Shown here piece after piece: positions 5,223-58,505 of a stretch of 64,000 nt of DNA. The position numbers and the translations under genes were made by a program. Position 1 is the first letter of the stretch. Every line of letters begins with the position of its first letter. The stretch comes from Sulfurivirga caldicuralii. GTDB taxonomy: Bacteria; Pseudomonadota; Gammaproteobacteria; Thiomicrospirales; Thiomicrospiraceae. The stretch spans positions 310,001 through 374,000 of the forward strand of contig NZ_FSRE01000003.1 in NCBI RefSeq assembly GCF_900141795.1, in the 5' to 3' direction. The notes below the pieces were generated by a model. The model worked only from the letters and a program-made list of their open reading frames with translations, was not told the origin of the DNA and searched no databases.

Positions 5223-5397
5223 CACCCCCCTCCTCTGGTGGGGCATCCCGCACAATCTATCCCGAATGGTCGCAATGGGACGGGTTTGGCGCGGATGCCA
5301 TTGATATGATTGTAAAAAGGCCTATTTTTTGAGGCAAATGCTTGAGTTTTCGCTTATATAAGTGCCCCGCTGCGAGGATGTGAAAAAAATCGATTTC

Positions 5398-5417
5398 AAA
5401 AAGTCGGGGACCCCCCC
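5398..5417 (+). repeat. Dispersed GTCGGGGAC element, copy 1
   Basis: The core is A5 followed by GTCGGGGAC and a run of C. Weaker similarity extends upstream (GTGAAAAAAATCGATTTC). It lies in the 255-base gap between the divergent hydrolase and outer-membrane protein genes, in the sense direction of the latter, 60 bases before its start codon. The rest of the gap is A/T-rich and has only a weak Fur-like half site (CATTATCA) at the start codon. Confidence 0.85.
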
Positions 5418-10846: not shown

Positions 10847-12505
10847 TCAACGATGATTGATAAAAATGGCTGAGGGTACTCCGCTGGCGCGATTGGGTTT
10901 GGCACCCACATGAACCTGTTCAAAACCCTGCCGCTGCCAGAACCGCTGCAAGCACGCTTCTGCGGCACAGCTGACGGAAACAAAATCCACCGGCGCCAGC
11001 AATACCGCCTGCACCAGCTGGCTGCCAATGCCCTGCCCCTGTAGCGCAGGATGTACGGCGATGCGGGTAATGCGCAGGCTGCGCTGGCGCAGCCAAAGCG
11101 AATCATCACGGAGCTGCGCCAGCCGCTGCGCCACCAGATGGCCGCGCACATGCCCTTCCACTGCATCCAGTCCGCCCTCCTCCAATGCCCATACGGCACC
11201 CACCACCTGACTCGCTCGCCACGCCAACCATACATGCTGCCCCGGCGCGTCCAGCAGCTGCAGGAGATCACGCGGGCGCGTCTGATAATGGGCCGTGCGC
11301 AACAGCGCCCAGAGGTGCGGCAACAGACGCATGTCATCCCGATTCCAGGGCACAATGCTGACCCCATCGCCGCACGGCGCCTCTGGGAGTTCGGCATGCA
11401 GCAGAAGGGTCTGATCGAGTATCCGCTCCAGCGCATCATCGGCTGACCAGCGGGTAGGCGTATTCAATTCAAACGTGCGCAGCACGCGCCCTGCGGGAAT
11501 GTGCTGATTCAGTTTGAGACGCAGCCCCTGCCCTGCGCCTTCATAGCCCTCGTCCGTGCTGGCCATGATAATGGGTGCAGGCGTCAACAGCAGCCGCGCC
11601 AGCACCGGCAGGGTCAGCCGCGCCGCCTCATCAATCAGCAGCAGATCACACGATGGGGATGTAGCCAGAAAGGTATCCGGCGCCATGATTTTCAATTCTG
11701 GAAGGGGGGTCCCCGACTTTTTCAACGGCACATTTTTCGCGGTTGCGCCAGTGCCTGCCTGCCAGGCGTTTCGGGCGGTTTTTTGCCATCCCAGTGCCTG
11801 CAGGCGGTTAAGAAAGGTGCGCAGCGCCGCGGGATGATTGCTGAGTAGGATCGTTCGGGCGGGCCGGGCAGCCTGCACCAGCTCGGCCAGTAGCGTGCTT
11901 TTGCCGCGACCACGGCGCCCGCGGATCAGCCAGATATCCGAGTCATTGAGGGTATGCAGCGCAGCCAGCACCTGCTGCTGATCATAGGTCAGCCCTTCAG
12001 GTCGTGGTTGAGGGGTACAGGTGGGTAGAGAAGGTAGTTCAGATAGTGAGCCCCGATAATGTTGCCACGGCTGGCCAAGCCAGGCGGCCAGGCGACTTTT
12101 GATCGGCAGCCGCTGGCCGGCACTCAGCCAGCGTTGCAGGGCCTGGTTGGATTGCTGCGACCAGTTCGGCGGCGTGAGCAACAGGCACACACCGCCGGCC
12201 TGTAGCGTAGCGCTCAGGGCCAGCAACATGTCCGGGTCAAAGCCGCTGAAGCCATCAACGATCAGCCCCTGCCATTCGCTACCCAGATAATGCTGCGCCT
12301 GATTGGGATACACCTGCACCACACCGTCTGGCACATGCAGGGGGGATACCCCGCCGCTGTCGAGCCAGAGCCACTGCGCTGGCTCAGTAAGCGCATCGAT
12401 CGCAGCTTGCAAAGCGCCCGGCTCATCGGCCAGCCACAACAGGCTGCGTTGACGACCGGCATGCAGGCGTTTCCTTGCCTGCTGCAGCCAGGCGTTCAGA
12501 CTCAT
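10847..12505 (-). CDS. tmcA: tRNA(Met) cytidine acetyltransferase, C-terminally short
   Basis: TmcA acetylates the wobble cytidine of elongator tRNA(Met) using ATP and acetyl-CoA. Present are the N-terminal domain, Walker A GRRGRGKST (about 196-204), Walker B-like LLIDEAA (289-295) and a GNAT acetyl-CoA motif (VHPALQGQGIGSQL). The protein stops right after the GNAT domain at 552 residues; E. coli TmcA has 671, so the tRNA-binding tail is missing. An IS remnant begins 75 bases downstream, which could explain the loss. Between the helicase motifs there is a stretch of about 25 extra residues ([19 protein letters not shown]) encoded by the dispersed element. The ATG overlaps the stop of the upstream lipoprotein gene (ATGA). 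Function is uncertain. Confidence 0.85.
   Translation of the reverse strand: MSLNAWLQQARKRLHAGRQRSLLWLADEPGALQAAIDALTEPAQWLWLDSGGVSPLHVPDGVVQVYPNQAQHYLGSEWQGLIVDGFSGFDPDMLLALSATLQAGGVCLLLTPPNWSQQSNQALQRWLSAGQRLPIKSRLAAWLGQPWQHYRGSLSELPSLPTCTPQPRPEGLTYDQQQVLAALHTLNDSDIWLIRGRRGRGKSTLLAELVQAARPARTILLSNHPAALRTFLNRLQALGWQKTARNAWQAGTGATAKNVPLKKSGTPLPELKIMAPDTFLATSPSCDLLLIDEAARLTLPVLARLLLTPAPIIMASTDEGYEGAGQGLRLKLNQHIPAGRVLRTFELNTPTRWSADDALERILDQTLLLHAELPEAPCGDGVSIVPWNRDDMRLLPHLWALLRTAHYQTRPRDLLQLLDAPGQHVWLAWRASQVVGAVWALEEGGLDAVEGHVRGHLVAQRLAQLRDDSLWLRQRSLRITRIAVHPALQGQGIGSQLVQAVLLAPVDFVSVSCAAEACLQRFWQRQGFEQVHVGAKPNRASGVPSAIFINHR
11704..11722 (-). repeat. Dispersed GTCGGGGAC element, copy 2 (inside tmcA)
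   Basis: The element lies in the coding strand of tmcA and is translated. Homology with the bioD copy goes well beyond the core: both read CAGGCAC(C/T)GG, then ACCG and A-rich DNA, then GCCG(T/C)TGAAAAAGTCGGGG, about 60 bp in all (roughly 11704-11763). The encoded peptide GTGATAKNVP is absent from the family consensus. Confidence 0.9.
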
Positions 12506-22849: not shown

Positions 22850-23746
22850 ATGAAGCCGCTTCCTCTGGATGCCCTACAGGTTTTTCTGTCCCTGTGCGAA
22901 CATGGCAGCCTTACTGCTGCCAGTGAACACCTGCACAAGAGCCCATCCACACTTCATCACAGCATCAAAAAACTGGAACAGCATCTGGGGACACCGCTCA
23001 TTGCCCGTGCAGGGCCACACCTCAAGCTCACCGCTGCAGGCGAACTTCTGCGCCAAGAGGGCGCGCAACTGCTCACCGGCGCCCAACAGCTGCAGCGCCA
23101 CGTGCAAACGGTCGCCAGCGGCTGGGAACGGTGTCTACGAGTTGCCGTGGACGACATCGTCCCCATTGAGCCCGTGTTGAAACTGTGTGAGAACTATCTG
23201 AATATAGCGCCGGACATGTGCGAGTTAGCACTGCATCGCGAGGTGCTCAACGGGTGCTGGGATGCGCTGGTCATGGATCGGGCTGACCTGGTGATTGGCG
23301 CTCCAGAGCCCCGACCCGAGCTGCCCAACACGGAAGCCATGACACTGGGCACGGTAAAAATGGTGTTTGCAGTGGTGCCGCACCACCCGCTCGCACGCCT
23401 CAAACGCCCCCTCACGGCCGACGATATCCGACAACATCGCATCGTAACCGTCGCAGACAGTGCACAGAAATTGCCACAACGCAGTATCGGACTGCAACCG
23501 GGCCAACCCGTCTTTCGGGTCGGCACACTCGCGCAAAAAGTGGAAGCTCAAAAACTGGGGCTGGGGTGCGGCTGGCTACCCTACCATCTGATTGACAAGG
23601 CCATTGCGGCTGGCGAACTGGTTGTACTGCCAACGCAAGAGCAGCCGCCCGCGCCGAGCCTTAACGCTGCCTGGCTCACACCACTTACAGGAAAAGGGTT
23701 GCACTGGCTGGTAGAGCAGCTCAAGGCTGGTGCACTAAGGCTTTAA
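22850..23746 (+). CDS. LysR-family transcriptional regulator
   Basis: The 298-residue protein has the LysR winged helix-turn-helix at the N terminus (LDALQVFLSLCEHGSLTAAS, then SPSTLHHSIKKLEQHLG) and an effector-binding domain (residues about 90-290). The closest known pattern is that of regulators next to reductases or oxidoreductases. The partner gene on the other side is the flavodoxin-like reductase. Nothing shows the inducer. The sequence is intact. Confidence 0.92.
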   Translation: MKPLPLDALQVFLSLCEHGSLTAASEHLHKSPSTLHHSIKKLEQHLGTPLIARAGPHLKLTAAGELLRQEGAQLLTGAQQLQRHVQTVASGWERCLRVAVDDIVPIEPVLKLCENYLNIAPDMCELALHREVLNGCWDALVMDRADLVIGAPEPRPELPNTEAMTLGTVKMVFAVVPHHPLARLKRPLTADDIRQHRIVTVADSAQKLPQRSIGLQPGQPVFRVGTLAQKVEAQKLGLGCGWLPYHLIDKAIAAGELVVLPTQEQPPAPSLNAAWLTPLTGKGLHWLVEQLKAGALRL

Positions 23747-23802
23747 GGCACCCAGCAGAGGGAAAAATGAGCCTGCACACCGCAGCGCGAAAAAGGGGCT
23801 TG

Positions 23803-23821
23803 AAAAAAGTCGGGGACCCCC
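23803..23821 (+). repeat. Dispersed GTCGGGGAC element, copy 3
   Basis: The element (TTGAAAAAAGTCGGGGACC) follows the LysR gene by 56 bases, in its sense direction. Upstream similarity includes GCGCGAAAAAGGGGC. Nothing else was recognised in the 277-base gap 23747-24023 apart from a possible -10 box TATAAT at 23983-23988 before rimB. Confidence 0.88.
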
Positions 23822-35975: not shown

Positions 35976-36869
35976 ATGGACGCCGTTTACGAAACCCATC
36001 TGACCAGCCTGCCCCTGCTTGCCCGTGGCAAGGTGCGCGACATTTACGATATCGATGACGAACGCATGCTCATCGTCACCACCGACCGCATCAGTGCATT
36101 CGACGTCATCCTGCCCACCCCCATTCCAGGCAAGGGGCGCATCCTCACCGAAGTGGCCGAGTTCTGGTTTCACAAGACGGCGCACATGATCCCCAACCAT
36201 CTGGACGAGGATTTTGACGTCAACCCCCTGCTTACGCCTGAAGAACGTAAGCAGATCAGCCGCCGCGCTATGGTGGTGAAAAAGCTCAAGCCGCTGCCCA
36301 TCGAGGCCATCGTGCGCGGCTACCTGATCGGTTCCGGCTGGAAGGAGTACCAGCAGTCCGGCACCGTCTGCGGCATTCCACTGCCGGAAGGGCTGCCCAA
36401 GGCGGCCAAATTGCCCGAGCCGCTGTTCACCCCCTCCACCAAGGCCGACGTGGGTGATCACGACATCAATATCACCTTTGAGGAAATGGCCGAGCGCATC
36501 GGACGCGAACTGGCCGAGCAGGTGCGCGACATCAGCCTGAAACTCTACACCTTCGCCGCCGACTACGCCCTCAAGCGCGGCATCATCATCGCCGACACCA
36601 AGTTCGAGTTCGGACTGGATGAGGCTGGCACACTTTACCTGATCGACGAGGCGCTCACACCCGACAGCTCCCGCTTCTGGTCAGCCCGGGACTACCAGCC
36701 AGGCACCGATCCCAAGAGCTTCGACAAGCAGTACATCCGCGACTATTTGGAAAGTCTCGACTGGGACAAGACCCCGCCGGGTCCGGAGCTGCCGAATGAC
36801 GTGGTGCGCAAGACCATCGAGAAATACACCGAAGCCAAGGACCGCCTGGTCGAAAACCCGGATGACTGA
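35976..36869 (+). CDS. purC: Phosphoribosylaminoimidazole-succinocarboxamide synthase
   Basis: The 297-residue enzyme condenses CAIR and aspartate in purine synthesis. It is of the longer, yeast-like form (E. coli has 237). Markers are [22 protein letters not shown]-like start, [20 protein letters not shown] and [22 protein letters not shown] precedes the ATG. Its end overlaps bioD by eight bases. Confidence 0.96.
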
Positions 36870-37587
36870 GCTGCCCAAACGGGGACTGTTCGTCACCGGC
36901 ACCGATACCGACGTCGGCAAGACGTGGGTGAGCCAAAACCTGCTTAAAAGCCTTAAAAACCCTGCCTTTTCAGGCACCGGTTCCACCGGAAAAAAACCGG
37001 CCGCTGAAAAAGTCGGGGACCCCCCTCCCGTGAGCGCCCGCAAGCCCGTCGCCAGCGGTGCCCAGCGCACGCGCCGCGGACTGTGGGCACCTGACACCCT
37101 TGCCCTTGCCGATGCCACCGGCGAGCCACTGCAGCGCATCACCCCCTACACCTTTGAACCACCCATCTCCCCCGCCGAGGCGGCACGGCAGGCAGGCTGC
37201 GATACATCGTTGGAAAAGCTGATCGATGCCTGCCGCGTGCCGGAAAGGCGCTGGACGCTGGTGGAAGGCGCCGGCGGCTTCTACTCCCCACTGGGCTCTG
37301 ACGGCAGCCTTAATGCCGACCTAGCCGAAGCGCTTGGCCTGCCGGTCCTGCTGGTGGTGGCGCATAGACTGGGATGCATTAACCACACCCTGCTTACACT
37401 GGAAGCGATTGAGCGCCGCGGGCTGAAACTGGCGGGCGTGGTGCTCAATGACGGGCCGCTGCCAGTTGAAAACAGCCCTACGCCTCAGGAATTGAAACGT
37501 TATCTAAAAGAAAAGCCGCTGTGGCACTGTGGCCCGCAGCGGCTCGATCCGGCACTGAGCGCGTGGATTACTGCAGTTTATAGCTGA
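36862..37587 (+). CDS. bioD: Dethiobiotin synthetase with inserted repeat element
   Basis: The 241-residue enzyme makes dethiobiotin from 7,8-diaminopelargonate, CO2 and ATP. The P-loop GTDTDVGKT (13-21), KPVASG with active-site K61, [11 protein letters not shown] and a C-terminal base-recognition region are present. In E. coli the two lysines of P-loop and KPVASG are 22 residues apart; here the gap is 41, so about 19 residues (57 bases) are extra. The added stretch, [19 protein letters not shown], is encoded by the dispersed element, in frame. The start overlaps purC. The other bio genes are not near. Activity is probable but not certain. Confidence 0.92.
37007..37025 (+). repeat. Dispersed GTCGGGGAC element, copy 4 (inside bioD)
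   Basis: The core AAAAAGTCGGGGACC is in the coding strand of bioD and keeps the frame. The homologous stretch reaches upstream to about 36970 (CAGGCACCGG, ACCGG, A7, GCCGCTG), matching the tmcA copy. Confidence 0.92.
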
Positions 37588-38352: not shown

Positions 38353-39084
38353 TCAGAGCTGCCCGGTTGTATCCGCTACAGCTGTTGTACCAGCAGTATC
38401 GGTTGTACCAGCAGTATCGGTTGTACCAGCAGTATCGGTTGTACCAGCAGTATCGGCTGTATCAGTTGTACCGGCAGCATCAGTAGCCCCGGTTGTATCG
38501 GTTGCACCGGCTACGGGCTCGACAACAACGGTGTTGTCCACCTCGGTTGAGCTCTCAATGGTCATTGCTGTGCTGCCGTCGCCTTCCATGTCATTTTCAT
38601 GTTCGACCTCAACATCATGCTCAACCTCAACGCCTTCGGCCTTTTCGATGAACTTGGCTTTCATTTCTGCCGCTTTCTCCTGCATGCGATCGGCCTTTTC
38701 TTCAAACTTCTCGCGCATGTGCTCGGCACGCTCTTTCATCTTTTCCGACTTCTCGGCGAAGCGCTCATGCATGTCCTCGGCCTTTTCCTGCATATGTTCG
38801 GCCTTTTCAGCAAAGCGTTCCTGCATATGCTCAGCCTTCTCCTGCATATGCTCCGCCTTTTCAGCAAAACGTTCCTGTATGTCGTCAGCCCGTTCCTGCA
38901 TGCGTTCGGCTTTCTCGGCAAAGCGCTCCTGCATGCGCTCAGCCTTCTCCTGCAGTCGAACAGCCTTTTCTGCATGTTCTTCCTGCACTTCCATGCTTGC
39001 GCTTACGTCCATATCTGCGTACACAGGCGCTGCACTTATGACACCTGCAACAATCAAGACTTGAGCAACCGCTTTCATTTTCAT
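38353..39084 (-). CDS. Exported protein with 18-residue helical repeats and TDTAGT tail
   Basis: The 243-residue product starts with a signal peptide (VLIVAGVISAAPVYA). Residues about 35-142 are six 18-residue repeats, each a heptad plus an 11-residue unit (ERFAEKAEHMQ then EKAEHMQ). Eighteen residues equal five helical turns, so an Ala/Met/Phe stripe runs straight along one face of a long charged helix, as in lipid-binding or bundle-forming helices. An acidic stretch follows, then a Thr/Asp/Ala/Gly tail with hexapeptide TDTAGT repeats. ATG 39084 has AAGGAG seven bases upstream; a GTG just before is less well placed. The family is unknown. It diverges from the DUF6502-like gene. Confidence 0.75.
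   Translation of the reverse strand: MKMKAVAQVLIVAGVISAAPVYADMDVSASMEVQEEHAEKAVRLQEKAERMQERFAEKAERMQERADDIQERFAEKAEHMQEKAEHMQERFAEKAEHMQEKAEDMHERFAEKSEKMKERAEHMREKFEEKADRMQEKAAEMKAKFIEKAEGVEVEHDVEVEHENDMEGDGSTAMTIESSTEVDNTVVVEPVAGATDTTGATDAAGTTDTADTAGTTDTAGTTDTAGTTDTAGTTAVADTTGQL
38384..38455 (-). repeat. Four exact 18-bp tandem repeats encoding TDTAGT
   Basis: The unit GTTGTACCAGCAGTATCG (plus strand) repeats four times without change; diverged copies continue to about 38510. It encodes the hexapeptide tail. Identity at the DNA level points to recent slippage and a variable copy number. Confidence 0.95.
38659..38982 (-). repeat. Six 54-bp coding repeats (18-residue helical units)
   Basis: The protein periodicity of 18 residues is mirrored in imperfect 54-bp DNA repeats with frequent TTCTGCATATGCTC-like and CGCAAAGC pieces. 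The units differ at many positions, so they are older than the 18-bp tail repeats. Confidence 0.85.
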
Positions 39085-40061: not shown

Positions 40062-41218
40062 TTCGTTTGCTGATGATTCTGAGCCTGCTGCTTGCAAGCT
40101 GTGCCCAGCCTGTCGGGACACAACTGGCTGCCGAGTCCGGCTTTGGCGGCACCGGAATGGCGCCAAGCTGCCCGGCTGCCGCCCTCCTCCCCGGCGATAG
40201 CGGCTTTGGCGGCACTGGCCATACCGCTGACTGCGGTTTTGGCGGCACCGGCGTCATCGGCACCATTACGGATTTTGGCTCCATCTGGGTCAATGGCCTC
40301 GAGATCGAACTGGCCTCTGGCCTGACCATCACCAGCAATCTAGGCCACCCTGTCGAACTCGCAATCGGCCAACAAGTGATCACCCGCACCCGGCAAGACG
40401 CCCTGCTGACCGACTATGTGGAAGTGTTTTATCCCATAAGCGGACAGGTTCAGCAACGGGACGGTAACCGCATTGTGGTCAATGGCCAACTGATTACCCT
40501 CGACGCACACACCCGCGGTCTGAAAACACTGCAGCCGGGCGACTGGGTTGCAGTTAGCGGCTGGCCGCAGGGCACGGATCGCTGGCTGGCGACGCGCATC
40601 GATCCAAACCCGACCCATATGGCCCGCGTGGAAAAACCCGCCCTTGATGCCCTCAACAGCCGCAAGGCGCTGATTGAAGGGGGCGTCGTAATTCGGGACG
40701 GCAGCGCCTGGCTGGAGCCCTACCATCTCAAACTGGGCGATGCCGCAGACTGGCGTGGCGAGCGCCTCGCGCTTGCAGCCGTGGAGCAGCAGCGTGCAGG
40801 CTGGCGCATGACGGCCGTGCGCGCCCTGCATAGCTGGCAGGTGGACTGGCACGAACTGGTGCGGGAGCGGTACGAACAGATGGCACAGCCAAGAGTGTAT
40901 CGTAACCGCCTCGACGTTGAACACACCCGCGAAGCCATGCACGAACGGACCGAGCACCTGAAGAACCAGCGCGACGTGCTCAAGGAGCAGCGGGAAGCAT
41001 TGCAGGAAAGTCGGGAAGCGCTTCAAGAAAGCAAGCACGAGCTGAAGGATCAGCAGGACATGCTCAAGGCGCAGAAGTCTCTGCTGGAAGAACAGCGAGA
41101 TGCGCTCAAAGACCAGCAGGAGCAACTCAAGGAACAGCGGGAAGCGCTTAAGGAACAGCGCGAAATGATCAAGGATATCAAGGAACAAAAAGAGGGCTAC
41201 GGGAGGCAGGACGACTGA
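40058..41218 (+). CDS. DUF5666-type lipoprotein with GFGGTG repeats and long coiled coil
   Basis: The 386-residue protein has a lipobox LLLASC, three copies of (S/C)GFGGTG within the first 70 residues, and beta-rich DUF5666-like domains up to about residue 250 (TDFGSIWVNGLEI, GQLITLDAHT). The last third, about residues 290-380, is an unbroken heptad coiled coil made of units like LKEQREA. It is probably an envelope protein whose coiled coil reaches into the periplasm or off the surface. It is coupled to the DUF6502-like gene and lies near another exported helical repeat protein. Confidence 0.72.
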   Translation: MIRLLMILSLLLASCAQPVGTQLAAESGFGGTGMAPSCPAAALLPGDSGFGGTGHTADCGFGGTGVIGTITDFGSIWVNGLEIELASGLTITSNLGHPVELAIGQQVITRTRQDALLTDYVEVFYPISGQVQQRDGNRIVVNGQLITLDAHTRGLKTLQPGDWVAVSGWPQGTDRWLATRIDPNPTHMARVEKPALDALNSRKALIEGGVVIRDGSAWLEPYHLKLGDAADWRGERLALAAVEQQRAGWRMTAVRALHSWQVDWHELVRERYEQMAQPRVYRNRLDVEHTREAMHERTEHLKNQRDVLKEQREALQESREALQESKHELKDQQDMLKAQKSLLEEQRDALKDQQEQLKEQREALKEQREMIKDIKEQKEGYGRQDD

Positions 41219-46830: not shown

Positions 46831-48012
46831 GTGCGCCCTAGCATTCTGAGACGCCTGCTGCTGTCCTATCTGGCCTTCGGGCTGGTCATGGGCATTATTT
46901 TTCCGTTTTTCGCCAGCCTGTTCGTGGAATGGAAGCCGGGCATGTATGGCTGGTTTGTGGCGGCCGCACTGGTGGCCGGTGTCATGGTCGGGCTGATCAA
47001 CTACTGGATGATGCGCATCATTCTGCTGGGCAAGCTACAGCGCATCGCCGAAATTGCCGATGCCGTGAGCAATCGCGACGTCAGTCACGCCTGCACCATG
47101 CAGAGTGCCGATACCCTCGGAGAAATCATCGACAGCATCAACCGCATGACCGCGAACCTGCGCGATATCGTGCAGCAACTGAACAGCAACGCCACCCAAC
47201 TGGACTCGGTTTCCAAACACTTGGGTGAACGGGCCGACGCATCCTGCGAAGAAGTACTATCGCAACGCGCCGAGGCCGAAAACATTCAGCAGGAAATGCA
47301 ACAGGTCAAGGAAACGGCCCAGGGCGTCACCATCCGCAGCGAGCGGGCCAGAGATGCCGTGGAACGCGCCCGTCAGCTGACGCGCGAAGGCAGCCAGCAG
47401 ATCCAGGCCACCCTGCACTCGATCCAGTCGCTGGCGGAAAGCACCGAAGAGATCGCCCAGCGCATCGAGCGCCTGACTCAGGCGAGTGACGCCATGAATA
47501 CCATCCTGCAAGTGATTCGTGAAATCGCCGAACAAACCAACCTGCTGGCGCTGAATGCCGCCATCGAAGCGGCCCGCGCGGGCGAACACGGTCGCGGCTT
47601 TGCCGTCGTCGCCGATGAAGTGCGCGAGCTGGCAAGCCGCACCGAAACCTCCGTAAGTGAAATCCAGCAGATGGTCAGCGATGTGCAGGAGCAGGCGCGG
47701 GGCACCCAGGCACGTGCCGCTTCCGCCCGCGAACTGGCACAGGAGAGCACCAGGCAAAGCTCGCAAGCCAAGCAGGCGCTCGAGCGCATTGAGCAAGAGG
47801 TGAACAGCGTGCACCAGCTCAACCGCGAAATTGCCGAGGCCAGCCGCCATCAGGATCAACTGGTAGCCACCGCCAGCCAGCGAATCGAAACCCTGAACAT
47901 CTCTTTTGCAGACGTGGACAAGGCCGCACAGGACCTGCATTCTGCCAGTGCTCAGCTGTATGAACTCGTACAGGCTCTCGAAACGCTGGTACGCAGCTTC
48001 AAGACCCGGTAA
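46831..48012 (+). CDS. Methyl-accepting chemotaxis protein without ligand domain
   Basis: The 393-residue receptor starts with GTG after AAGGTG. Two helices (residues 12-30 and 42-62) are separated by about 10 residues, so there is no periplasmic sensor. A HAMP-like part follows, then the signalling tip [21 protein letters not shown]. Input must come from membrane state or partners. It stands before the PAS protein and the second receptor, in the same direction. Confidence 0.92.
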
Positions 48013-48573: not shown

Positions 48574-50069
48574 GACAGCACATCAGCGCCCGAATCCCGC
48601 TATTGCGCCGCAAGATTCAAGTCCTGCTGGCTGTCCCCCCTCTTTTTACCGCCCTGTTGCTCGTGGCGAACATCGTCATGGAGGGCGCTGACCTGTTTAC
48701 CGTGCTGCTGGGCATTGCCCTGCTTGTCTTTTCGGGCATCTCCGCCTGGACCTGGCGCACCTTCAAACAGGCTGGCCGCGCTCTTGAAGGAGTGAAAACC
48801 AGCCTGAACGAAGCGCTCGCCGGCAATACCGCCTACCGCGTCCTGGATACCCAAGGTCTCGGCGAACTGGGCGAAATCATCTGGGATCTGAATGACTTTT
48901 TCGACATCGTGGAAATCTTCCTCAAGGAAGCGGACAATGTCTTTGCCGCCGCCAGCCGCAACGACTACGCTCGCAAGCCCATTCAGCAGGGCTTCCCGGC
49001 CAACTGGCGCATGACACTGGGCAATATTGACGCCGGCATTGAGGCCATGCACCAGTCGCACGAGTTTGCGCAGCGCAACCGCCTCATGGGCGAACTGCAT
49101 CACCTCAATATCACCAATCTGGTGCCCTCGCTGCTGGCCAATCAGCAATCCGTCGTCCAGGTCAACAATCAGCTGGAAGAAGTCATGACCGTCTCCGAAG
49201 CCAATCGCCAGCAGGCTTCTGCCAGCCGCAAGGTGGTCGCCGGCATCACCGCCACCGTGGAAACATTCCATCAGCAGATGGACGCCATGGGCGCCGATGC
49301 TGAACAGCTCGATCGGGCCAGCGCCTCCATCGGTGAAACGGTCAATGTCATCAAGGATATTGCCGAGCAGACCAATCTTCTTGCGCTTAACGCCTCCATC
49401 GAAGCGGCCCGTGCGGGCGAACACGGCCGCGGCTTTGCCGTCGTCGCCGACGAAGTGCGTCAGCTGGCAGAGCGCACCGCCCACGCCACCGAAGACATCC
49501 AACAGATCATTGACTCCCTGCAGGGGCGCATCAATGAAATGGTTACCAGCACCCAGCAGATGCGTGAACAGAGCGCGGCCATTCATGAGGAAATCGCCCG
49601 TTTCGAGCAGCAGTTCGCGCAGCTGGCAAAAAGTTCGGAGCAGATCGCCGACGCTCTGCGCAAGGGAGAAGACTGGCTATTCGGCGCACTGGTCAAGCTG
49701 GATCACATCATCTACATGCAGCGCGCCTTTATCGCCACAGAAAAAGGCGCCGACAGTGACGAAGCGAAAGCCGTGTTCGTGGACCATCACAACTGCCGTC
49801 TCGGCAAGTGGTATTACGAAGGCTATGGCAAGAAACGCTTTGCAGATCTGCCCGCCTATCGCGAACTGGAGCCCTGGCATGCGCAGGTGCATACCGGCGT
49901 GCACCGGGCCCTGGAGGCCGCCCGCGAGGACTGGATGCACGATGACCACGCGCTGGAAAGCATCATCACCGCCATGCGTGAGGCGCAGGAAGCCAGCCAT
50001 CATGTAATCCAGCTGATCGACGCGCTGCTGCAGCAGCGCCACAGCGAAAACCCGCCAAAAAATGCATGA
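48570..50069 (+). CDS. Chemoreceptor with C-terminal CZB zinc-binding domain
   Basis: The 499-residue receptor has two N-terminal helices (19-37 and 44-63) with almost no periplasmic loop, a linker, the signalling tip [21 protein letters not shown] and a CZB domain at the end ([35 protein letters not shown]). CZB domains bind zinc through three His and one Cys and can sense zinc or oxidants. It probably works with the PAS protein, which is translationally coupled. Confidence 0.92.
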
Positions 50070-50143: not shown

Positions 50144-51094
50144 ATGAAAAAGCCCCTGCCTGACGTCGCCTGTGAAGCCCAGTCCGAAACCCGGGGTCGC
50201 CTCAACTGGGTCGGCATGAGCCAGATCGAGCTGCCCATCGAAGTGCTGGACGGTGAAGATCAGCCTGTACGCGTACCCACACTGGCTGACGCGTTCGTCA
50301 ATCTGATCGATCCCAACAGCAAGGGCATCCACATGTCGCGCCTCTATCTGCGACTGGATCAGTTCTCGCTGGGGGGGGCTGTCAGTGTCGAGCGGCTACA
50401 GGGACTGCTGGCCGACTTTATCGACTCGCATGCGGGACTCAGCGACCGCGCGCATGTGGCGTTTCGCTTCGACTACTACGAGCGCCGCGCCTCGCTGCTC
50501 AGCGACAATAGCGGCTGGAAGCACTACCCGGCCGAAATCCGTGCCCAGCTCGGTCCGGGCGGCTTTATGTGCGAACTGGGGGTTGAAATTCCCTACTCAT
50601 CCACCTGCCCCTGCTCCGCCGCACTGTCCCGCCAGCTGATCATGGAACACTTTGCCGAACGCTTCGCCGGACAGGAATCGGTGGCGCTGGACGAAGCGCT
50701 AGCCTGGCTGGCCACCCCCGAAGGCGTCAATGCCACCCCGCACAGCCAGCGCTCCATCGCCCAGATCCGCGTACGCCTGCAACCCGGGCAGGAAATCGAT
50801 ATTTCCGCACTGATCAGCCTGATTGAAGGGGCGCTGCAGACGCCGGTACAGGCTGCTGTCAAGCGCGAGGATGAGCAGGAGTTCGCCCGTCTGAACGCCG
50901 CCAATCTCATGTTCTGCGAAGATGCTGCGCGCCGCCTGCAGGCCGCGCTGAATGCGGCGGAGAGCCATTTCGCCGACTTCTGGGCACGCGTCAACCACTA
51001 CGAAAGCCTGCACCCCCACGACGCCGTGGCCGTGGTCACCAAGGGCGTGCCCGGGGGCTATTCAGACGATCCCGAACTGGTCTGCAAGCGCTAA
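50144..51094 (+). CDS. folE2: GTP cyclohydrolase IB (zinc-independent type)
   Basis: The 316-residue enzyme makes 7,8-dihydroneopterin triphosphate from GTP, the first step of folate and monapterin synthesis. The COG1469 features are LPDVACEAQSETRGRLNWVGM and the catalytic cysteine region SSTCPCSAALSR. FolE2 can use metals other than zinc and often replaces FolE under zinc starvation. A consensus Zur box was not found upstream, so it may be the housekeeping form here. Confidence 0.95.
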   Translation: MKKPLPDVACEAQSETRGRLNWVGMSQIELPIEVLDGEDQPVRVPTLADAFVNLIDPNSKGIHMSRLYLRLDQFSLGGAVSVERLQGLLADFIDSHAGLSDRAHVAFRFDYYERRASLLSDNSGWKHYPAEIRAQLGPGGFMCELGVEIPYSSTCPCSAALSRQLIMEHFAERFAGQESVALDEALAWLATPEGVNATPHSQRSIAQIRVRLQPGQEIDISALISLIEGALQTPVQAAVKREDEQEFARLNAANLMFCEDAARRLQAALNAAESHFADFWARVNHYESLHPHDAVAVVTKGVPGGYSDDPELVCKR

Positions 51095-51173
51095 AACACG
51101 CCTGATCCATCGTTTTATGCCCTTACAACCGTTCAGGGGCCAATCCTTTCCACCCGCGAAGAAATTGCTTCTT

Positions 51174-51194
51174 AAAAAAGTCGGGGACCCCCCC
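51174..51194 (+). repeat. Dispersed GTCGGGGAC element, copy 5
   Basis: The core A6-GTCGGGGAC-C7 is 80 bases downstream of folE2 in its sense direction and ends next to the yidD stop (opposite strand). Upstream similarity: CCCGCGAAGAAATTGCTTCTT. Confidence 0.9.
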
Positions 51195-58086: not shown

Positions 58087-58108
58087 GGGGGGGGTCCCCG
58101 ACTTTTTT
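58087..58108 (-). repeat. Dispersed GTCGGGGAC element, copy 6
   Basis: The element is in the sense strand of the cyclotransferase-like gene; its TTTGAAAAAAGTCGGGG contains that gene's TGA stop. It ends 13 bases before the folM ATG. Confidence 0.92.
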
Positions 58109-58505
58109 CAAACGCGAAATTTCTGACAGCGGCGATCTGCCGCCCAAGCGGGCCTGGGGGTGCGCAAGGCGGCGGCAATCAGCCGTTTATCGCGAGCAAA
58201 CCAGCACCAGGCGGCCTGTTCGCCCATTTTTGTGCACACCCTAATCTGCCTACGTGCATACAGTGTGCCTTCGTCTTCGAAGGCGTCCAGCTGGCGCAGC
58301 AATGTCTGCGACACACCATACAATTCACCGCAGATGGACGCCTTGAGCGCATCCGGCGCTTCATCGATCAATAGCGGCCAGCGCCAGCCCGTGTGCAGAA
58401 AATAGGGCTCACAGGTGCGCGCCTCCCCCAGATAGCGCGCCCGCGCCAGCAGATAATGACCCTCGCCACCCCGCATCAGGCTGCCATAGACGAACACCCG
58501 TCCCA

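Follow-up and report, generated by a model that had tools for sequence, protein, structure and literature searches.

Dispersed chromosome-organising sites are known from matS/MatP, parS/ParB and the SlmA sites, in which a short strict core recurs at many chromosomal places. The uptake sequences USS of Haemophilus and DUS of Neisseria also have a strict short core that is found genome-wide on both strands, often within genes, and that forms dialects, of which the Neisseriaceae have eight (PMC3630211). In addition, the USS carries A/T flanks; in H. influenzae these tracts confer a bent shape, and the USS arises by point mutation (PMC7811141). Helically phased A/T and G/C over more than 100 bp, indicating wrapped DNA, characterizes the phage Mu SGS and the E. 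coli gyrase motif. E. coli gyrase wraps DNA, and its ~130-bp motif, in which GC content is phased with the helix, is degenerate and symmetric, with two 47-bp arms and a period of 10.75 bp (PMC6379681). Finally, Rickettsia palindromic elements (RPE) are repeats that can lie in frame within genes, and REP elements can lie at gene ends. Dispersed recognition sites that form dialects are already known, but the anatomy and spacing of the site described here match none of them. The open-access literature searched yielded no relevant paper on regularly spaced phased-arm motifs, nor on uptake sequences with Thiomicrospira.

We analyzed a stretch of 64,000 nucleotides from Sulfurivirga caldicuralii ("the window"), whose gene content suggests a sulphur-oxidising gammaproteobacterium, together with a genus set consisting of S. 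caldicuralii (G000) and the congeners G001, G002 and G003; the genomes of the latter three are fragmented and were partly read.

Results

A strict core recurs in tmcA, in bioD and throughout the genome

The first-pass annotation had proposed that an inserted element of about 60 bp is translated within two genes of the window, tmcA and bioD. Translation confirmed that tmcA encodes the peptide claimed at 11704-11763, and one element is indeed read in both genes in frames one base apart, giving KKSGTP in one and EKVGDP in the other. The DNA match between the genes is likewise real and beyond chance, yet it is an inverted repeat of 38 nt with 87% identity (11700-11737 and 36992-37029) and not a homologous element of 60 bp. 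What the copies have in common is just an exact core and A/T phasing.

The core AAAAGTCGGGGACCCCC occurs in 131 exact copies in the 1.67-Mb genome, 6 of which lie in the window (Table 1), while the reversed control pattern has 0 copies genome-wide. In S. caldicuralii it is made up of an A-tract and GGGG-A-CCCC, and AAAA is present at 131 of 131 copies of the 13-mer GTCGGGGACCCCC. Allowing up to 2 mismatches added merely 17 further sites, and a comparison of the flanks of all 131 sites revealed no common sequence outside the core. The core is thus strict and over-represented on both strands (73 forward, 58 reverse), genes included, and the shared unit is this strict core of 17-18 bp plus helically phased A/T tracts. 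At two places, C7:97886/97934 and C7:551556/551605, sites form inverted pairs 48-49 bp apart that share the middle A/T tract. Among the genomes searched the exact core is private to S. caldicuralii: a search of 85k genomes gave just three isolated 18-mer matches. A viral origin was rejected, with 0 copies in IMG/VR.

Table 1. Positions of the core sites, their arms and the two site-bearing genes discussed in the text (coordinates of the window).
Feature	Position	Strand	Arm	Remarks
Site 1 core	5399..5415	+	~5263-5398	intergenic, divergent neighbours
tmcA, tRNA(Met) cytidine acetyltransferase	10847..12505	-		Pfam NAT10_TcmA helicase + GNAT domains
Site 2 core, AAAAGTCGGGGACCCCC	11705..11721	-		in tmcA, in-frame KKSGTPL
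Site 2 arm	11722..11857	-		upstream helically phased A/T, within the tmcA reading frame
Site 3 core	23805..23821	+	~23669-23804	intergenic, directly past gene 22850-23746
bioD-like dethiobiotin synthetase	36862..37587	+		AAA_26 domain; named bioD in the first-pass annotation and from its DTDVGKT and KPVASG motifs
Site 4 core	37008..37024	+	~36872-37007	in bioD, loop preceding ARKPVASG, translated EKVGDPP
Site 5 core	51176..51192	+	~51040-51175	intergenic, convergent neighbours
Site 6 core	58090..58106	-	~58107-58242	short gap separating two minus-strand genes

The window also carries repeats of other kinds: a tandem array of 9/18-bp repeats at 38364-38516 (family D1), repeats in a 21-bp register at 40958-41176 (family D2) that probably encode a coiled coil, and a direct repeat of 124 bp at 47521-47644 and 49356-49479, 85% identical and 1835 bp apart.

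Translated copies lie in a variable loop of TmcA and in a linker of PrmC

About 25 residues had been described as added between the helicase blocks of TmcA. The tmcA product aligns with E. coli TmcA (2ZPA), and a multiple alignment of TmcA proteins does not bear out a cleanly inserted segment. The loop that separates the blocks measures 50 residues here, 43 in G003 and 42 in G001, ranges from 22 to 58 residues across aligned homologues, and is matched in homologues by unrelated loops of comparable length, the observation that the first-pass annotation had named as refuting its proposal. It is a naturally length-variable helicase loop that has gained 7-8 residues relative to the congeners. A site-like sequence is present in the same loop of G001 tmcA, on the opposite strand.

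PrmC offers a clearer gain of translated sites than TmcA. The G001 gene (L176, contig C15) contains three in-frame tandem dialect copies 93 bp apart, compared with one in S. caldicuralii; they read DPAKTGETP, DPAKMGETP and DPAKSGETP and add a long linker ahead of DLGTGSGA.

A helically phased A/T arm extends from one side of the core

On the A-tract side of the core, A/T content oscillates for ~115 bp, with peaks at -18, -33, -44, -54.5, -65, -75, -85, -95, -105 and -115 and weaker ones to -136, while the opposite side gives a weak signal. The period of the arm is 10.23 bp (95% CI 10.18-10.28), and 10.1 bp in its outer part. Both A and T occur in the tracts at -18, as expected if shape is read rather than bases. 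Arms within genes are as strong as intergenic ones (score 1.37 versus 1.30), 80% of site arms surpass the 95th percentile of controls, and the median AA/TT phasing is 8.5 at sites compared with 2.8 in control windows. Taken alone, the arm in tmcA is unremarkable (86th percentile of the controls); the phasing emerges statistically from the sites as a set, in which many single arms are not exceptional. The arm decays gradually, and its end defines no fixed wrap length.

Sites are evenly spaced and rare between divergent genes

The gaps between sites have a mean of 12.2 kb and a median of ~12 kb. Their coefficient of variation (CV) is 0.66, compared with 0.98±0.08 for random placement, and none of 20000 simulations was as even; gaps of 6-18 kb account for 67.5% of the total versus 38.5% expected. 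Once close pairs were merged and three near-match sites included, the CV was 0.60, which contrasts with 0.92±0.08 under a null restricted to gene boundaries. Near-match sites lie in two of the three largest gaps, and those at C7:484962 and 497072 divide a 39.5-kb gap into steps of 12-14 kb. The remaining big gap, 63.6 kb at C7:196310-259927 (L241-L244), is free of sites. Reading the translated sequences of this region, we identified RubisCO/carboxysome genes, tuf twice, rpoBC and ribosomal-protein operons; the absence of sites from ribosomal operons may just reflect too few permissive positions.

With gene calls that are approximate, coming from a simple codon-usage gene caller, 59 of the 131 sites fall in genes, 70 are intergenic and 2 are partly in genes. 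Coding sequence makes up ~91% of the window, yet about half of the sites are intergenic. The neighbours of intergenic sites are convergent in 27 cases, tandem in 39 and divergent in 4. Intragenic sites lie near termini or in apparent linkers or loops, and across the 59 genes the motif is translated in five of the six frames, which bears out the earlier suggestion that it is tolerated in more than one. The sites show no replication-strand polarity (GC skew of the site strand averages -0.007±0.007), and a KOPS-like replication-strand signal was rejected on these grounds.

Congeners keep the positions and change the core

The architecture A4-N(1-4)-G4-N(1-4)-C4 is strongly enriched in all four genus members, with 343, 295, 130 and 96 overlapping matches against 0-7 for controls, but not in 110 relatives; the rest of the family lacks the motif. 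Within the genus we distinguished three core dialects. Next to that of S. caldicuralii there is the dialect of G001, whose top over-represented k-mers have the form AAAA[A/T][T/C]GGGGGAGACCCCGT, likewise flanked by an arm on one side, and which G002 shares, and that of G003, A6-7T[A/C]GGGGGACCCC. Counted from GGGG, the arm peaks of G003 fall at the same positions as those of G000, and those of G001 at nearly the same. A k-mer scan of the first 180 kb of G003 found no matching repeat because the dialect is sparse in this genome; the architecture pattern detected it. Site density differs by species, from one per ~12 kb here to far sparser in G003 and clustered in G001, where tandem copies are spaced 93, 102-103 or 123 bp apart, equal to whole helical turns.

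For 13 of the 21 sites mappable to G001 contigs, a count that includes one variant core (L180) added by eye, a G001 site lies within 100 bp of the orthologous place (P = 3e-13), and 12 of these 13 are on the same strand (P = 0.002). Site 6 has a dialect copy at its orthologous place in G001 (locus L175), and the inverted pair C7:551556/551605 is also inverted in G001 (L181), there 51 bp apart. Orthologous sites are thus kept in place while their cores have changed together. In DNA shared by G001 and G002, which have the same dialect, fixed core positions at six sites differ at 1 of 72 compared with 11.6% in the flanks (P = 0.0015); the former value is our own count from paired sites of draft genomes, a small sample, with the degenerate A/G position omitted. 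The core and its positions are maintained, as selection would do, though biased uptake could have this effect too.

PilT was found in all four genus members. ComEC (PF03772) is present in G000, G003 and most relatives and was not found in the drafts of G001 (99% complete) and G002 (84% complete). The Y1/RAYT transposase family (PF01797) is absent from all four species. So is the histone fold PF00808, the single histone family searched, and a histone-wrapped positioning sequence was rejected as an explanation.

Discussion

We give an even chance to the reading that these are genus-specific chromosome-organising sites, at which a putative protein reads the core and wraps the phased arm. From three features of the sites we infer that such a protein exists, that it wraps the arm and that the sites have an architectural role. 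A strict core next to an arm whose helical geometry is constant speaks for a protein that recognizes the former and bends or wraps the latter; the dialects suggest co-evolution with that reader; and regular spacing combined with tolerance in genes argues for selection for the presence of a site rather than for local regulation. In such a mechanism, a DNA-binding protein would recognize the strict core, and the ~115 bp on its A-tract side, with A/T-rich minor grooves every 10.1-10.25 bp, would be bent or wrapped on the protein or an oligomer. Selection would retain one nucleoprotein complex per ~12 kb at the least harmful places: mostly directly past genes, and otherwise in protein N-termini, linkers and loops, with the site simply being translated. 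The likely outcome would be chromosomal loops that are pinned or bounded. A more specific form of this proposal falls a little short of even in our estimation: a new genus-specific system would partition the chromosome at ~12-kb steps, wrapping ~115 bp of helically phased DNA next to each strict core, the "language" of the core would shift in concert across retained positions when the reader protein changes, and sites would be written into tolerant coding loops, linkers and termini. Compared with matS, parS and SlmA sites, those described here occur at genome-wide intervals of ~12 kb instead of in one macrodomain, have a long bent arm and show concerted core turnover between congeners. Several observations sit less well with chromosome organisation. 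Spacing varies among species, implying no fixed domain length; there is no replication-strand polarity; the arm fades gradually and many arms are unexceptional; and DNA uptake sequences, too, are evenly spaced and randomly oriented, have copies within genes and form dialects.

A sequence of the USS/DUS type accounts for most features, and we consider it a serious if rather unlikely alternative. A type IV pilus would prefer DNA containing the core, biased uptake and recombination would spread and keep the sites, and the phased tracts would aid kinking. Besides the properties just listed, the flanking A-tracts, the closely spaced inverted pairs (48-51 bp), one of them conserved between species, and the distribution of PilT and, in G000 and G003, of ComEC are in line with uptake. 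However, the failure to detect ComEC in the drafts of G001 and G002, in which sites are dense and conserved, argues against it, the 131 copies are about ten times fewer than the 1,465 USS cores of H. influenzae (PMC7811141), the ~115-bp one-sided arm is far longer than USS tracts, and tandem arrays in helical register are left unexplained; the genus also lies outside both families in which such sequences are known. Helical phasing and even ~12-kb spacing, which would suit supercoil domains, could alternatively point to strong DNA gyrase sites, with cleavage at or near the core, wrapping of the phased arm by the C-terminal domains and regular entry points for supercoiling. We regard this as improbable, as the arm is one-sided instead of symmetric, its confidence interval excludes the 10.75-bp period of the E. 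coli motif, the core is exact instead of degenerate, and strict-core dialects of individual species are not expected of gyrase.

The abundance of copies, their in-frame position in genes, the net 7-8 extra residues in TmcA and the three copies translated in tandem in G001 PrmC are what a short mobile element of the REP, MITE or Rickettsia-palindrome type, inserting in genes and intergenic DNA alike, could produce. This origin is nevertheless very doubtful: the flanks are unrelated and the copies lack defined ends, with only core and phase in common, orthologous cores have changed in concert, and the database searches returned no viral copies and almost none in other genomes. Unlike RPE and REP, the site is neither a copied unit nor a hairpin, and none of the four species encodes a RAYT. 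Least credible of all, in our judgement, is a transcription terminator or RNA element. Although half of the sites are intergenic, with convergent pairs favoured, and inverted pairs could form stems, 45% sit inside genes, where they are translated and occur in either orientation, the core lacks a proper hairpin loop, the tmcA site has no Rfam match, and A/T phasing along the helix belongs to DNA rather than to RNA.

If the sites are true wrapped-DNA marks at ~12-kb intervals, the basis of bacterial loop or supercoil domains would become directly testable. If they are instead uptake sequences, they would be ones from outside the Pasteurellaceae and Neisseriaceae that have a long bent arm and persist where ComEC is missing, which would revise ideas on the origins of such sequences. 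In either case, selection at the DNA level writes peptides (KKVGDPP, GGVPDFF and others) into unrelated proteins, and such "insertions" are therefore not to be read as protein adaptations.
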